Of a stretch of 52,506 nt of DNA, positions 1,577 through 19,266 are shown piece after piece. This DNA is from a virus, in the IMG/VR virus record IMGVR_UViG_3300047168_000032, positions 1-52,506 of that record, one strand, 5' to 3'. The notes beneath the pieces were generated by a model. The model was not told the DNA's origin and made no database searches. It saw only the letters and a list, made by a program, of their open reading frames with translations. The translations under genes were made by a program, and so were the position numbers. Each line of letters opens with the position of its first letter. Position 1 is the first letter of the stretch.

Positions 1577-4034
1577 ACTTTTGTGCTCTTGAGGTACGTT
1601 GTTGCTCTGCAGTCTCATATAGATTTGGCATCTTCTGTAATGCTGGTGAGGACTTAACCCCGCTTGACTTCTTGCTAGTTGGTTGAGGTGTTGGTTGTGG
1701 TGCTGCGGGCTGAGCCGACTGAATTGCGTTAGGTGTCATGGTACTATCAAGAGGCTGCCCTAGAAACAAGGAAAGCCCCATCTTAGTTTTATAAGAGACG
1801 GTGTTACCTTTGTCTATATGATTAACCATTTCCTCAGTAACTTTTTGTTTTAATTGATTATATAGATTTGGATACATACTGTTCATATGAGTAATATCTT
1901 GAGCAGTGAGATTACCTTTCTTAATCTTATCCAGAACAATCAAAGGTTGCTGTGCTATATCCAATGCGTTTTTAAACTGAGATTTCTGTGTGTTAGACAG
2001 CACCGGTTTACTATCTAAGGGTGCCTTCTTATCTTGATCCGCTCTCAAACTATTGAGGTAGGACAGTGCAAAAGTCGTAGTGCTATTCAGTAGGTTGCCA
2101 TGATCAGGTAAATAGTCGTTTACCTTAGGAATATTGTCAATTTGCTGTTCTGGATTAGTTTGCAATGCTTTTAGTTGTTTAACTATATTTTCTCTATCTT
2201 TATCACTAGGTATCATGTGATCTGCCAACACTTTAGAGCCTTCTTTGAAGATAGCTGAGGCTGCTTTATCCGCCAGTCGTACACCATCTGCTACTTGAGC
2301 GCCATAAACAGAAGCTGCTTTAAATCCTTCAGAAGAAACTTCCTTTGATACTACGGATTTAGCGATACCGGGCAGTACACTGCTAAAGAATGGTCCTAAA
2401 GCGTGGGAACCTAACAGAGCTCCTAGTTCACTGTGAAGGCCTAACAGTTTAGCCCCTCCTGCTCCTACAGCTCCACCTATTGTTTTGCCGCCCACTTCGG
2501 TTAATCCACGATCTATGAATGTGTCCGCTAATTTAGAACCTAGGGTCTTTTTCTCAAGAGAAGCCATGGTGGTATTAAGAGGAGTCTCTAACACTGGGCT
2601 CTCCGCTCCTAATTTACTATAGGTGTCAGATATGACCTTCTTGTAATTTTCACTAGTGTCTAAAAAGTTCTTAAGCATCATCTGTTTGATTTCAGCTCTA
2701 GGGTTGCCAACCTGTCTGAGGTAGGTCATTACTTTGCCTGGATCTATTTGCTTCTCACCAGCTACAACTGTGGTGAACTTCTTTTCGAAGTCCTTAAGGG
2801 TAGGTAGGTAGGCTTTAAATGCGCTATTGATATCCTGTTGAACATTAGCAGCTTTTCCCCAGATCTCAGGGTCTTCTAAGCTTGTCCTTAAATCGTGAGC
2901 TAAGCCTTTAACTGTATTGACAAAATCATATGAATCATCGGTGGGCTTTACAAATTTGTCAAATTTACTATAGCCTTGGAGGGTTTGTTTTAAGTCTTGA
3001 GCAGCATTGAATATATCTTTAGGAACAATGTTATCTTTTGATACTGCTAATGTAAAGTTATCAAGATCGGACTTAAGCCGCATTGCGAGCCTCGGAGGAT
3101 ACCGGTACGAGTCTTCTATCATTGACTTAATTGCACTATTGACTTTGTTATATATTCCGTTGGCTTGATCGGTAATTTTTTCGCTCATCTCAGGCATTGC
3201 CGCTTCAACAGCTTTAGATTTAAGTCCTGTAGTACCGTACACCTCATCTGCATGCTTGGTTATATCAGCGTAGTATTTACTTAGTTCGTCTGTCATCGAT
3301 GACACAGGGTCAGGGTTATTAATATGATCTTGGATACGAGCCTTAAAATCTGCTGCTACTTTACCTAAGGACGAGTTCTCTAATGCCGATGCAACTTTGG
3401 CTGCACCTGCTCCAAATACACCGCCTATTGCACCGGCTAGCCCGATGGATGTGATTGCTGATTGTACCGACTGATTAGGGTCGTTAAGGATTAGTTTAGA
3501 CGCTTCGTCAAATCCACCGAAGAGCATGTTCTCTACTGCTGCTTTAGCTGCTCCGGTGCCAATCTTAGATGCTAGTGTTTCACCGGCTACTGGAATTAGT
3601 TTAGCGGCGATGGAGTCGATAGCTCCCGCTTGTGTGAATTTAGCTGCTGTAGATAGTACTCCAGTTCCACCACCAGTGACTAACGCTGGAGCGACTAATC
3701 CTGCTGCTTCACTGGCAAAATGAGTTCCTGGATTTACCTCTGCACGGGCTCTAATATCCTCAGGGTCAACTCCTAATGTTTCCTCAGCCATTGGTGCTAA
3801 TGGACCTAACAAACCTTGTCCTACGCCTTCCAGGGCCGTTTTAGCCATCTGTGTAATAGTGCCGTACTTAGCTTCTTTAAGTTCAGGTTCAATAAACTTA
3901 AGTACTTCAGGTGGTGTTTCCATCTGCTCACTAGGGGCGGTAGATTGTTCGGGGGCGGTAGATTGTTCGGGGGCAGCAGGCTCTGGATTAGCCAGGAACT
4001 GCATCACTTCTGGGGGGGTTTCATTGTCAGCCAT
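1575..4034 (-). CDS. Large internal virion (DNA ejection) protein
   Basis: 819 residues. The N-terminus repeats TPPEV-x-x-F and EQSTAP. Residues about 95-220 are Gly/Ala-rich with amphipathic or membrane-like helices, and further Gly/Ala-rich helices lie around 515-570. The rest is charged helical sequence ending in a Pro-rich tail (QPAAPQPTPQPTSKK) and basic residues. Composition, size and position after the Gln-rich proteins fit podovirus ejection proteins that cross the host envelope. No peptidase or transglycosylase motif was seen. It is the last gene of the block started by the element at 7418. Confidence 0.65.
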   Translation of the reverse strand: MADNETPPEVMQFLANPEPAAPEQSTAPEQSTAPSEQMETPPEVLKFIEPELKEAKYGTITQMAKTALEGVGQGLLGPLAPMAEETLGVDPEDIRARAEVNPGTHFASEAAGLVAPALVTGGGTGVLSTAAKFTQAGAIDSIAAKLIPVAGETLASKIGTGAAKAAVENMLFGGFDEASKLILNDPNQSVQSAITSIGLAGAIGGVFGAGAAKVASALENSSLGKVAADFKARIQDHINNPDPVSSMTDELSKYYADITKHADEVYGTTGLKSKAVEAAMPEMSEKITDQANGIYNKVNSAIKSMIEDSYRYPPRLAMRLKSDLDNFTLAVSKDNIVPKDIFNAAQDLKQTLQGYSKFDKFVKPTDDSYDFVNTVKGLAHDLRTSLEDPEIWGKAANVQQDINSAFKAYLPTLKDFEKKFTTVVAGEKQIDPGKVMTYLRQVGNPRAEIKQMMLKNFLDTSENYKKVISDTYSKLGAESPVLETPLNTTMASLEKKTLGSKLADTFIDRGLTEVGGKTIGGAVGAGGAKLLGLHSELGALLGSHALGPFFSSVLPGIAKSVVSKEVSSEGFKAASVYGAQVADGVRLADKAASAIFKEGSKVLADHMIPSDKDRENIVKQLKALQTNPEQQIDNIPKVNDYLPDHGNLLNSTTTFALSYLNSLRADQDKKAPLDSKPVLSNTQKSQFKNALDIAQQPLIVLDKIKKGNLTAQDITHMNSMYPNLYNQLKQKVTEEMVNHIDKGNTVSYKTKMGLSLFLGQPLDSTMTPNAIQSAQPAAPQPTPQPTSKKSSGVKSSPALQKMPNLYETAEQQRTSRAQK

Positions 4035-5919: not shown

Positions 5920-7056
5920 TTATTTCTTTCCTTTTTTGCTCTTTATAGCTTCTACAAATTGCTTGGCTTTGCCGTCTGGATTAGCAGCTTGAGTTACCGA
6001 CCTTGGTAGTACGATAGAACCTGGTTTAAGCTTTGCTGGGACCGTGTCATTTGAATAGGAGTTTATTGCTCCTCCTACTGCTGCTTTGCCTGGTACGGTT
6101 TTGCCTGCTTTCATTGGATTAACTTTGCCGTCTTTAGCTGCTTTGGCTTCTTTAGGGGGTAATATCTTTTCACCGGGGGATACCAATGCATCTACTAAAT
6201 GACTTGGTTTGCCACCATGAGCAAATAAGTGTGCGCCAATCTTAGACTTTCCTTTGTAGTTAGCTTTTAGGTTAGCAGCTTGGTTGCTTGAGTTAGCAAA
6301 TACTGGGCCCCCAGTAGCAAACTCAGGAATTTCTCCACCGCCTGCTGCACCTGCTACAGCACCAGCAATACTGCCCCACATTGCTGTCTGTTGATTACCT
6401 TGTTGTGTCTGTGCTTGAGCTAATGCCGTATTTTGTTGATTTTGCTGATAAGCGATATTAGCTGCCATCTGTTGCTGATTAGCTGCTGCTTGCTGTTGAG
6501 CGAGTTGTTGGGCTGACACCTGACTTAACGCTCCCTGTTGCTGTCCAACTTGTTGGGTTGCTAAACTGCCTAACATTCCTTGTTGCTGCTGTAATGCACC
6601 GACAGCACCTAATTGTTGCTGAGCCTGAAGGGTTGCTGCCTGTCCAGCTGCTTGCTGTTGAGCTGCTGCACCTTGCATACCTGCTTGCCTTGCGATTAGT
6701 CCAGCGTTCTGAGATGCACCGCGTTGGCCTGCCATTAATGCTGCCTGGTTAGAAACGTTTTGTCCTGTAGTCTGAGCAAGCTGAGCCAATGCAGGATTAG
6801 GACCTTGGCCTTGTGCCATTTGTCCTAGCTGTTGAGCAAGTGCTTGCTGCTGATTGTACACTTGAGATTGATTACCAATACCGTTTTGAACAGCTAATTG
6901 GTTTGCTAAATTTTGCTGTTGCTGAATGTCAAATTGAGATTGAGCTTGTTGACCATTATAAGTATTTGCCTGGCCAGATTGAGCTTGGTTAATATTCTGC
7001 AGTTGTTCATTTTGTATTGGTGTTGAGCCAAATAATGTTCCTACGACGGCGCCCAT
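5920..7056 (-). CDS. Gln/Ala-rich internal virion protein with LVSPGE / LPRSVTQ C-terminus
   Basis: 378 residues. After MGAVVGTLFGSTP, residues about 20-235 are extremely rich in Gln and Ala (predicted long helix). Then come GGGEIPEFATGG, HGGKPSHLVDALVSPGEKILP and NDTVPAKLKPGSIVLPRS, ending in lysine-rich sequence. The C-terminal motif family (sacrificial-looking 'SPGE' and 'PGSIVLPRSV' turns) is common in phage internal and tape-measure-like proteins. The gene lies 1 nt from both neighbours, consistent with a tightly packed late operon. Function is inferred as internal virion/ejection component. Confidence 0.6.
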   Translation of the reverse strand: MGAVVGTLFGSTPIQNEQLQNINQAQSGQANTYNGQQAQSQFDIQQQQNLANQLAVQNGIGNQSQVYNQQQALAQQLGQMAQGQGPNPALAQLAQTTGQNVSNQAALMAGQRGASQNAGLIARQAGMQGAAAQQQAAGQAATLQAQQQLGAVGALQQQQGMLGSLATQQVGQQQGALSQVSAQQLAQQQAAANQQQMAANIAYQQNQQNTALAQAQTQQGNQQTAMWGSIAGAVAGAAGGGEIPEFATGGPVFANSSNQAANLKANYKGKSKIGAHLFAHGGKPSHLVDALVSPGEKILPPKEAKAAKDGKVNPMKAGKTVPGKAAVGGAINSYSNDTVPAKLKPGSIVLPRSVTQAANPDGKAKQFVEAIKSKKGKK

Positions 7057-16639: not shown

Positions 16640-17110
16640 TCAATCTTGAGTTATAGTTAGATCTGGATTTATGGTAAAATTACAGGTACTTCCGATACCA
16701 TTGCTGTAATATTTACCAGGAGGCAACTGCGCTAAGAAACCACCATTTTGGCTGTACACACCGTACATCACGCCACTTATGATTATTCCAAACTCAGGGA
16801 AGGTTGAAGGGTAGGTAGGGGTGCCTGGGCAGAATTGAACCGTCGTCACCGGGGTTGCATCTGTTCCATTGGTACCGTTGATACCATCTGTTCCGTTTAT
16901 ACCGTTGGTACCATCTGTTATAAGGGCCACAGAGCCGTCAGGGCACATTATTTGTGCACCCTGGGCTAATTGCTTAACTGTGCAAGAAAGAGGCGCCACG
17001 GGGCTTGGAGAAGGCATAGGCTTGTGAGGGGAGATTAGCCTATTCGGTATGCTTGCATCATAAGTCCCACAGGCCGTAAAAATAAAAGGCAATAATAATA
17101 GTTTTTTCAT
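16640..17110 (-). CDS. Lipoprotein with collagen-like Gly-x-x repeats
   Basis: 156 residues. MKKLLLLPFIFTAC is a signal peptide with a lipobox ending at Cys14, so the mature protein should be lipid-anchored at the envelope. Residues about 48-62 give CPDGSVALI, then a run of GTNGINGTDGINGTNGTD (Gly-x-x triplets), then a compact domain with two Cys (FCPGTP...STCNFTIN). It has its own promoter with a palindrome in the spacer, and the capsid terminator isolates it upstream, so it looks like a moron: a host-expressed accessory gene, perhaps for superinfection exclusion. The style recalls Bdellovibrionota surface lipoproteins, but this is weak evidence. Confidence 0.7.
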   Translation of the reverse strand: MKKLLLLPFIFTACGTYDASIPNRLISPHKPMPSPSPVAPLSCTVKQLAQGAQIMCPDGSVALITDGTNGINGTDGINGTNGTDATPVTTVQFCPGTPTYPSTFPEFGIIISGVMYGVYSQNGGFLAQLPPGKYYSNGIGSTCNFTINPDLTITQD

Positions 17111-17268: not shown

Positions 17269-18515
17269 TTAAGCGCTTAATTGTACTACGCAATTCCAAC
17301 CTGGGGCTGAGCACACTAAATTTCCATAGTATGCGATGCGAATTTCTAAGGCGTCAGCATTTCCAACTCGTAATCCCTCTAACCCTTCCATTCCGTAGGT
17401 CAAAATGTGCGGTATTTTACCTAAGGAGCGAAGTTTCCAGGTGCTCATCGTTAAGATATAAGCAGTCTGTGGAGGGCAAGAGCGGTCAGCAAGTACCGTG
17501 ATACGTCCGTATGCCGATTGGAAGGTGATACCTTGGAAGGCAACTTCAACTTCGTCATGGTCTACTTGAACATATTGAACTTTAGCTCCTAAGCTGTTTA
17601 CAAGAGCAGCATAAGATGCAAAGTCCATGATACAGAGATCTGGTCGTCCACCTTCACGGTTGATGAATGCAAGGGCGTTTGTAATCCCTTCTTCAATCGT
17701 GTAGTTCTGAGCATTGTAGCGTAACCCAGCCAAACGAGTTGGGTCTTGGCTTCTGTTAACTCCCCAGAAATTGTCGTTAGCAGCAGGACTTGCTATTGGA
17801 ATCCAAGCAGCTAGTCCTGACAATGCTAAAGCCGATCCAGTGCTCACTGTTCCTAGAACGATATCACCATTGACTCCCAGGGCGTTTCCAGCAGCTGCCC
17901 ATGAGGAATCAGCACCGCCACTTGAAGTGAGGATAGTAACGATACCGTTGGCACGGTCAACTTTCTGGACAAATCCAGTTGTAGCACTGATATTAGAAAT
18001 AACCCCACCAGCGTACACGTAGTTGATCAGCGTCATTCCTGGTTCGAAGTTAACAATTTGTTGAACGTTCTGTAACACGATAGCGTATACACCAACGGAT
18101 GGGCTAGATGCTGATGCGATGAAACCACGTGTTCCCGAACCGTCTCCGAACAATTCAAATGCGATATTGTTGGTCAAAGTTCTGAATCCACCGTCGAGCT
18201 GTAATTTAGCTTCATCGACGAAAGCTCCGGCATTTGACTTAGTCTGTTCCATCAACAAGTTGGTGATCGTGACTAATTGGTAGTCCTGAACCACATACAC
18301 GAAGAAAGACGCTAAGTTAGTAGGAGTCTGTTGACTCTGAGCAAGAGCGAACGTATGGTCACGCCCTTGGGGTGCTCCGAATTCGATTGGGACTGGTATA
18401 TACTTACCAGCAAAGCCGTCCGGAGACTCATTCTTAGGCACTAAAGCAAAGAAAGGATTCTCTTTATAAACGACATCCTTCATATATTCATTTGAATCTG
18501 TGTAAAGCTCTTTTA
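17269..18515 (-). CDS. Major capsid protein, exon 2
   Basis: This exon gives 414 residues plus a split Leu codon. Spliced to exon 1 (19195-19153) the protein is 429 residues: MAAIYANPQNQVAA-L-KELYTDSNEY then MKDVVYKENPFFALVPKNES, PVPIEFGAPQGRDHTFALAQ. The KDVVYKENPF-ALVPK start and the later NDNFWGVNRSQDPTRLAG, TIEEGITNALAFINREGGRP, LCIMDFASYAAL and VEVAFQGITF are typical of HK97-fold capsid proteins of this type. The upstream in-frame stop (TAA) shows that translation cannot simply extend from 18483, while the spliced frame is open. Followed by a strong terminator. This is probably the most highly made protein of the virus. Confidence 0.85.
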
Positions 18516-18752
18516 CAATTTGTTATCGCAGGTTATTAACCCCTGCCTCACTGGTTTCTTTTGTTATACCAGTGTTCAGACTATCACACCGCCTTTCGGC
18601 GTCATCTCATTTAGTCGTTCACGGTGGTTTTTACCTTCCGCCTTGTCACCTACTGCTAGGCTTCCAAGTCAATTAGAGAAAATTTATCCAGCTCTAAAAT
18701 TGTACATAAGTAAAACTAAATCTTTTGTAAGATTTTAGTCTGCTGTTAGGGT

Positions 18753-19106
18753 TTAGGACAGCATACCTTTTTTACCCTTGTTCCAAGGAGTTATAGAATC
18801 TTTTTTTCTAACTCCTCGCCCTTCGCCTCCTAAGTTAATGTTATACTTAGGTTTGTATTTAGACATGTAATGTTTTTCCGCTGCATCTAAGTCTACCTGG
18901 TTGTAGTACACACTGTGTACGTTCCAGGTGAATTTATCAGCGCCGTGCTTTCTTAAGCCTGCACCTATCACATATCCTTTGCCTCTTTGTGCATTGTATT
19001 CGTGTTGTTTTTTTCTTGCTTCCAAAGAGAGTTTCGACTGCCCTATATAAACTATTTCATCATTTAATCTGACAAAATATATGATCATGGGTTTATCACT
19101 AAACAT
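18753..19106 (-). CDS. GIY-YIG homing endonuclease (intron-encoded)
   Basis: 117 residues. MIIYFVRLNDEIVYIGQSKL holds the GIY...YIG core (IYF and VYIG), then EARKKQH (catalytic Arg), LDAAEKHYMSKY (metal-binding Glu) and YNINLGGEG (Asn). The C-terminus ITPWNKGKKG looks like a NUMOD3-type DNA-binding stub. It makes a double-strand break at intronless capsid alleles, moving the intron. Its ATG 19106 lies only 6 nt past the -10 of an intron promoter, so the message would be almost leaderless unless the inner ATG at 19088 is used. Confidence 0.85.
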   Translation of the reverse strand: MFSDKPMIIYFVRLNDEIVYIGQSKLSLEARKKQHEYNAQRGKGYVIGAGLRKHGADKFTWNVHSVYYNQVDLDAAEKHYMSKYKPKYNINLGGEGRGVRKKDSITPWNKGKKGMLS

Positions 19107-19112
19107 ATGTTT

Positions 19113-19141
19113 AATATACCATTTTATTTTACTTAAGTCAA
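19113..19141 (-). promoter_or_regulatory. Intron-internal sigma70-type promoter
   Basis: TTGACT, 17-nt spacer ending TGG, TATATT on the minus strand: one of the best matches in the window. It lies inside the intron directly before the endonuclease gene, allowing expression separate from the capsid message. Confidence 0.6.
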
Positions 19142-19152
19142 CAAATAAGTTT

Positions 19153-19195
19153 AAGCTGCTACTTGATTTTGGGGGTTTGCATAAATTGCGGCCAT
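19153..19195 (-). CDS. Major capsid protein, exon 1
   Basis: ATG 19195 with AAAGGA 6 nt ahead starts MAAIYANPQNQVAA plus the first base of a Leu codon (TTA), completed by exon 2. Without splicing the frame meets TAA at once. The product continues as KELYTDSNEYMKDVVYK, a natural capsid N-terminus. Confidence 0.8.
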
Positions 19196-19266
19196 GGCAA
19201 TTTCCTTTATACCTCGGTTAGTCGGGAATTACTTCCTTCGTGGTCCTCGGCATTGTTAATATAATC

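Follow-up and report, generated by a model that had tools for sequence, protein, structure and literature searches.

A group I intron in a phage major capsid gene and putative core-less mini-introns in the capsid genes of relatives

The IMG/VR virus record IMGVR_UViG_3300047168_000032, analysed here over positions 1 to 52,506 and referred to as the window, carries on its minus strand a major capsid gene whose first 43 nucleotides are cut off from the rest by a 637-nucleotide (nt) insert with the hallmarks of a group I intron. Inserts of only 30–63 nt, here called mini-introns, interrupt capsid genes related to it and those of a second, unrelated capsid family. The best joint explanation, in which we have very high confidence, is that the window insert is removed by group I splicing and that the mini-introns are most likely introns with a deleted core that are spliced by the core of a full intron located downstream. 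It is grounded in observed insert borders, base pairings, covariation and co-occurrence, from which we infer how splicing proceeds chemically, what catalyses it and the part played by homing.

All features of the gene and its intron lie on the minus strand. Exon 1 (19195–19153) stands behind a ribosome-binding site, AAAGGA, read directly at 19208–19203; it encodes MAAIYANPQNQVAA in 14 codons plus one nucleotide, a U, and is followed at once by an in-frame stop. Joining 19153 to 18515 removes the insert and connects exon 1 to exon 2 (18515–17269), giving a protein of 429 residues, which aligns over its full length and unbroken to most of 80 IMG/VR relatives at identities down to 53%; in intron-free relatives the two exons are contiguous. 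The open reading frame (ORF) that a plain search finds for the capsid comprises 404 amino acids from the first ATG at 18483 and is 25 residues short of the spliced product, and these N-terminal residues are conserved, since most relatives align to the spliced protein without interruption. The short exon with its own ribosome site and immediate stop, the 429-residue product and the 25-residue shortfall had all been described in an original prediction from the sequence, and each was borne out. A splice-aware protein-to-DNA dynamic-programming alignment, scored without any intron signal and thus blind to splice motifs, placed a single break in the window, at codon 14, phase 1, with a length of 637 nt. 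As predicted, the split gene is a major capsid gene, of the SU10-like kind: it matches PF17236 (SU10_MCP) with 25.6 bits, above the cut-off of 24.1, and phrog_9953 (major head protein) with E=5.5e-12. No relative of the window capsid was found in the phage records or in the bacterial genomes searched.

On comparative evidence, the insert (19152–18516) is a group I intron with a correspondingly predicted splicing chemistry. Its borders agree between intron-free relatives and the blind alignment, its core is recognised by a covariance model, and a locus designated L036 shares both the intron and its insertion site. The covariance model, R1, was built from 44 diverse phage intron cores, with the window and L036 excluded from training, and in cmsearch it gives a single match in the window, at the insert, which covers P3-P4-P5-P6-P7-P8 (18692–18575; 111.5 bits, E=4.6e-24). 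RNAalifold, applied to the 44 aligned cores, found P3, P4, P5, P6 and P8 unaided, with compensatory changes in 17 of 24 pairs. When the P7 pseudoknot is added, 98.7% of cells are paired, and the covariation score is 0.583, as against 0.178 after shuffling and about 0.1 after sliding. P7 covaries across the family (GACUA/UAGUC, GACUG/CAGUC, GACUU/AAGUC), and in the window its strands, GACUA at 18616–18612 and UAGUC at 18583–18579, can be read directly and accompany the P8 hairpin, as the first reading of the insert had it.

Pairings with both exons match these borders. In other members of the family the internal guide ends where the AAA in front of P3 begins, and at this position the window reads UUUUA-GAGCUG-GAUAAA. 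GAGCUG (18694–18689), immediately 5′ of the core, pairs with CAGCUU at the end of exon 1 (19158–19153) to form P1, whose U.G pair falls exactly at the splice border set independently by the relatives; UUUUA (18699–18695), again read directly, pairs as P10 with the UAAAA that opens exon 2 (18515–18511), and the last base of the intron is a G (18516). The U at the end of exon 1 and its U.G pair with the internal guide recur in L036. That the insert stays unspliced, with the capsid starting at Met 18483 and the upstream frame being a separate short gene, is extremely improbable: a 404-residue ORF does exist, but no ribosome site is seen before Met 18483, most relatives have the 25 N-terminal residues in one piece with the rest, and the insert holds a group I core with a P1 and a P10 that match both exon borders. 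In the proposed mechanism, P1 would form within the interrupted capsid pre-mRNA and loop out about 450 nt, including an endonuclease gene; a guanosine bound in P7 would attack after the U of exon 1, P10 and the terminal G would position exon 2 for ligation, and the 429-residue protein would be encoded only by the spliced message.

The endonuclease ORF (19106–18753, 117 amino acids) matches the GIY-YIG family PF01541 (E=1.7e-7), in keeping with the original prediction, and lies in the P1 loop, because the internal guide adjoins the core 3′ of the ORF. The L036 intron, 70–76% identical to that of the window at the DNA level, contains an endonuclease ORF of 218 amino acids, to which the window ORF is 73% identical over its first 114 amino acids before it ends; the GIY-YIG catalytic domain is present, and about 100 C-terminal residues of the homologue are missing. 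A remnant similar in its DNA to the last part of the L036 ORF (TCTTACAAAAGATTTAGTTTTACTTAT) persists before the core, so the window gene looks to have been shortened by an internal deletion. The intron itself probably arrived by homing.

The splice-aware aligner was applied to 101 distinct loci of the window capsid family (family 1) and 65 distinct loci of the Phage_capsid_4 family (family 2), the latter reached through a scan near other window-type introns, in which four flagged loci carried a second capsid gene. Loci L032, L267, L187 and L194 were excluded from the tallies as truncated contigs or poor alignments, and inserts reported near codons 146–158 were set aside as alignment-end artefacts. 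Family 1 has full-length inserts at many codons, with at least one in 31 of 99 loci; together with the precedents in phages LittleE and Tuc2009 discussed below, this makes the earlier claim that introns are far rarer in capsid genes than in polymerase, terminase or nucleotide-metabolism genes an overstatement. A further 27 inserts of 30–63 nt occur in 24 family 1 loci, and 12 family 2 genes have one mini-intron each at codon 87 (30–40 nt), followed by full introns; L187 and L194, outside the tallies, have one at codon 86. Altogether, 36 capsid genes contain 39 such inserts (for example L038 1533–1562, and others in L304, L274, L318, L105 and L363), the removal of which restores the protein.

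About two placements are possible for each of these inserts without a change in the protein, and for all 39 a protein-neutral placement exists that leaves U as the last base of the exon and G as that of the insert. In family 1, the exon end then pairs with a guide inside the insert to form P1, in most cases a U.G pair plus 4–8 base pairs (bp), with irregularities at codon 30, where four loci show a single bulge, and at codon 45, where the cases with the exon end GAGUCCU have an internal mismatch. The bases just before the guide pair over 3–8 bp with the start of the next exon, as P10. Both pairings are present in all mini-introns, some of them short or with one mismatch or bulge, and the family 2 inserts, with the same terminal U and G, P1 and P10, replicate the signature in a second capsid family. 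Tests against shuffled inserts gave p<=0.015 for each family 1 mini-intron and about 0.0025, the lowest attainable value, for most. Pairing with the insert's own exons averages 6.5 bp for P1 and 5.1 bp for P10, compared with 1.8 and 0.6 bp with the exons of other sites. Four loci with an insert at codon 30 differ in their exon 2 starts, and each has the matching P10 (AUAAAG/CUUUAU, AUAAG/CUUAU, AUAAGG/CCUUAU and ACAAA/UUUGU).

The translational bypass element of T4 gene 60 is about 50 nt long, contains a stop codon and is linked to a homing endonuclease. The small inserts, which are of similar size, contain an in-frame stop in 36 of 39 cases and have homing endonuclease genes nearby, might likewise be elements that the ribosome skips. 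Unlike in gene 60, however, matching take-off and landing codons are found in none of the 39, the inserts at codon 30 split the codon of a conserved Tyr, and every insert fits the group I borders with P1 and P10; bypass, very improbable in our view, was rejected on the codon mismatch and the splice signature.

The aligner does not invent mini-introns in intact genes, since none appeared in a third family, the P22-like coat proteins, over 71 loci; three short gaps reported in the truncated P22-like contig L403 lie inside an intron core. A search for mini-introns in the window gave nothing convincing, and a search of the genes neighbouring the capsid gene returned only the capsid mini-introns and one 85-nt gap in L043. 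Scanning blindly for P1 and P10 proved too unspecific on its own, with 111 ORF-restoring 5′ sites against 67–109 in wrong-base controls, so only protein-guided mini-introns were counted.

No catalytic core of their own was found in the mini-introns, whose 30–63 nt leave no room for P3–P9; their sequences point to group I-like substrates rather than complete group I introns. The most economical catalyst would be the core of a neighbouring full intron. Over both families, 36 genes have a mini-intron and a full intron, 19 a full intron only and 107 neither, while none has a mini-intron only (Fisher p=2e-22), and every mini-intron is followed in its own gene by a full intron, at a distance of 23–302 nt, most often 27 nt. 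The window core type is the sole full intron found in the mini-bearing L301, L303 and L304 and in several family 2 genes that have a mini-intron; most other family 1 mini-introns are accompanied by an HNH-carrying core type with a covarying structure of its own (22 of 32 pairs), which resembles the td-like IA2 introns of T4. We consider it likely that natural core-less group I mini-introns, made up of P1, P10, a short tail and a terminal G, are excised by the ribozyme core of a full intron that follows them in the same transcript, such that one ribozyme would serve several introns, in what would be a new mode of splicing. Splicing by a core located elsewhere, be it a full intron that works in trans once excised, some other RNA of the phage or a protein, is conceivable, given that engineered group I ribozymes excise inserts in trans (PMC4094466), but sits poorly with the absence of mini-introns from all 107 genes without a full intron and with the position of each one upstream of a full intron of its own gene, and we deem it unlikely.

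At codons 50 and 29, some relatives carry a full intron and others a mini-intron at the very same site, so that mini-introns are most simply regarded as core-deleted full introns rescued by their neighbour; the correspondence at these two sites suggests how they arise. Their look of core-deleted introns, and the stop codon in most of them, would also suit dead remnants within capsid genes that are non-functional or replaced by another copy. This is highly unlikely: the exons are open and conserved, the mini-bearing genes are under strong purifying selection (median ratio of nonsynonymous to synonymous substitution, dN/dS, of about 0.04), P10 tracks changes in the exons, and 36 independent loci are concerned.

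In both unrelated capsid families, many mini-introns stand 27 nt upstream of a full intron. The homing endonuclease I-TevI has 23–25 bp between its cleavage and insertion sites, and by analogy the similar 27-nt spacing may hint at protection from homing endonucleases. One may speculate that mini-introns persist because they disrupt, at little cost, the target site of a homing endonuclease that competes.

Several points weigh against splicing of the window intron and of the mini-introns as proposed. All of the evidence on both is sequence comparison, and the loci are metagenomic. P1 of the window intron is only 6 bp long, and about 450 nt separate its two strands. The dependence of mini-introns on a neighbouring core is an association, part of which could stem from linked inheritance, and mini-introns that share a site also share descent and are not independent. 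Furthermore, Rfam, which the original prediction had proposed as a check, gave no group I match over the window either at gathering thresholds or at E<=10; RAGATH-7 (19.3 bits) and U7 (19.7 bits) scored far under their thresholds. At gathering thresholds, related loci with the same core, including L082, L084 and L036, gave no group I match either, and we therefore read the negative as a sensitivity gap of the library and not as a refutation. The weak RAGATH-7 match is full-length and lies over the intron core (18549–18728, minus strand; E=0.087); RAGATH-7 perhaps shares group I-like 3′ features, or the match may be due to chance.

The GAUUGACUUGGAA-core intron type is populous in phages and goes unseen by Rfam at its gathering thresholds. 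At least 120 IMG/VR stretches contain a 15-mer taken from the core, some of them by chance. In Podoviridae sp. ctn9Y15 (MW202674), part of a short insert that interrupts a P22-like coat gene is 76% identical to positions 18546–18685, and the core also matches, weakly (E=0.2), the sequence between two ribonucleotide reductase coding sequences (CDS) of Roseobacter phage CRP-118. The coat gene of MW202674 (L082, about 2960–3230) and the ribonucleotide reductase gene of CRP-118 (OR420741; L084 1977–2376) are each annotated as two CDS with a window-type intron between them. Both inserts have the core type of the window, with 75–76% core identity, and both belong to the R1 training set; they differ in their host genes, in a split CDS annotation that makes no mention of an intron, and in a length that can be explained without an endonuclease ORF.

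Introns in capsid genes are themselves a known kind, given two precedents. Splicing of the capsid intron of mycobacteriophage LittleE (Cluster J) was demonstrated by reverse-transcription PCR and protein sequencing (PMC3706429), and a capsid intron has been reported for the lactococcal phage Tuc2009, as cited in the same paper. Like the window intron, both interrupt a major capsid gene, follow a U, end in G and contain an endonuclease gene; they differ in capsid family and position, no mini-introns are described with them, and the LAGLIDADG-like protein of LittleE is encoded on the opposite strand. What is new would be the mini-introns at the level of the families; the window holds no more than an ordinary full intron. 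For the mini-introns, the closest likeness lies in engineered trans-excision ribozymes and group I spliceozymes, in which a group I core removes a core-less insert in trans, guided by P1 and P10 or P9.2 (PMC4094466). Those were designed from Tetrahymena and have the guide on the ribozyme itself, whereas mini-introns are natural, bring their own guide and share a transcript with the presumed core. No report of natural core-less group I introns was found in the open-licence full texts searched, among which most subscription papers are missing. The group III introns of Euglena chloroplasts are very short, reduced from self-splicing introns and believed to need a catalyst from elsewhere, but derive from group II introns, unlike mini-introns.

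Further observations concern the surroundings of the capsid genes. An SU10/P22-like portal gene lies near the capsid gene of the window, and directly downstream of the latter an ORF (16640–17110, minus strand) has a signal resembling that of lipoproteins (LLLPFIFTAC) together with Gly-rich GTNGINGTDG repeats. In L297 (3963–4080) and L274 (3891–3998), more window-type cores occur close to the 3′ portion of these capsid genes, and introns are thus also present beyond the aligned region. In L031, the last 30 capsid codons are found a second time (6535–6624), about 320 nt behind the intact capsid gene.

The window contributes a well-supported group I intron in a capsid gene; the intron is of a type missed by Rfam, and it sits in a gene whose product a plain ORF search would annotate 25 residues short. 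If the proposed origin and splicing of the mini-introns are true, group I-type introns can be as small as 30 nt, and phage capsid genes would offer a natural case of one ribozyme processing several introns, a counterpart of the engineered spliceozymes that can be tested in a tube. Core-less introns that depend on a neighbour would also represent the step that theories on the origin of the spliceosome assume for group II introns.
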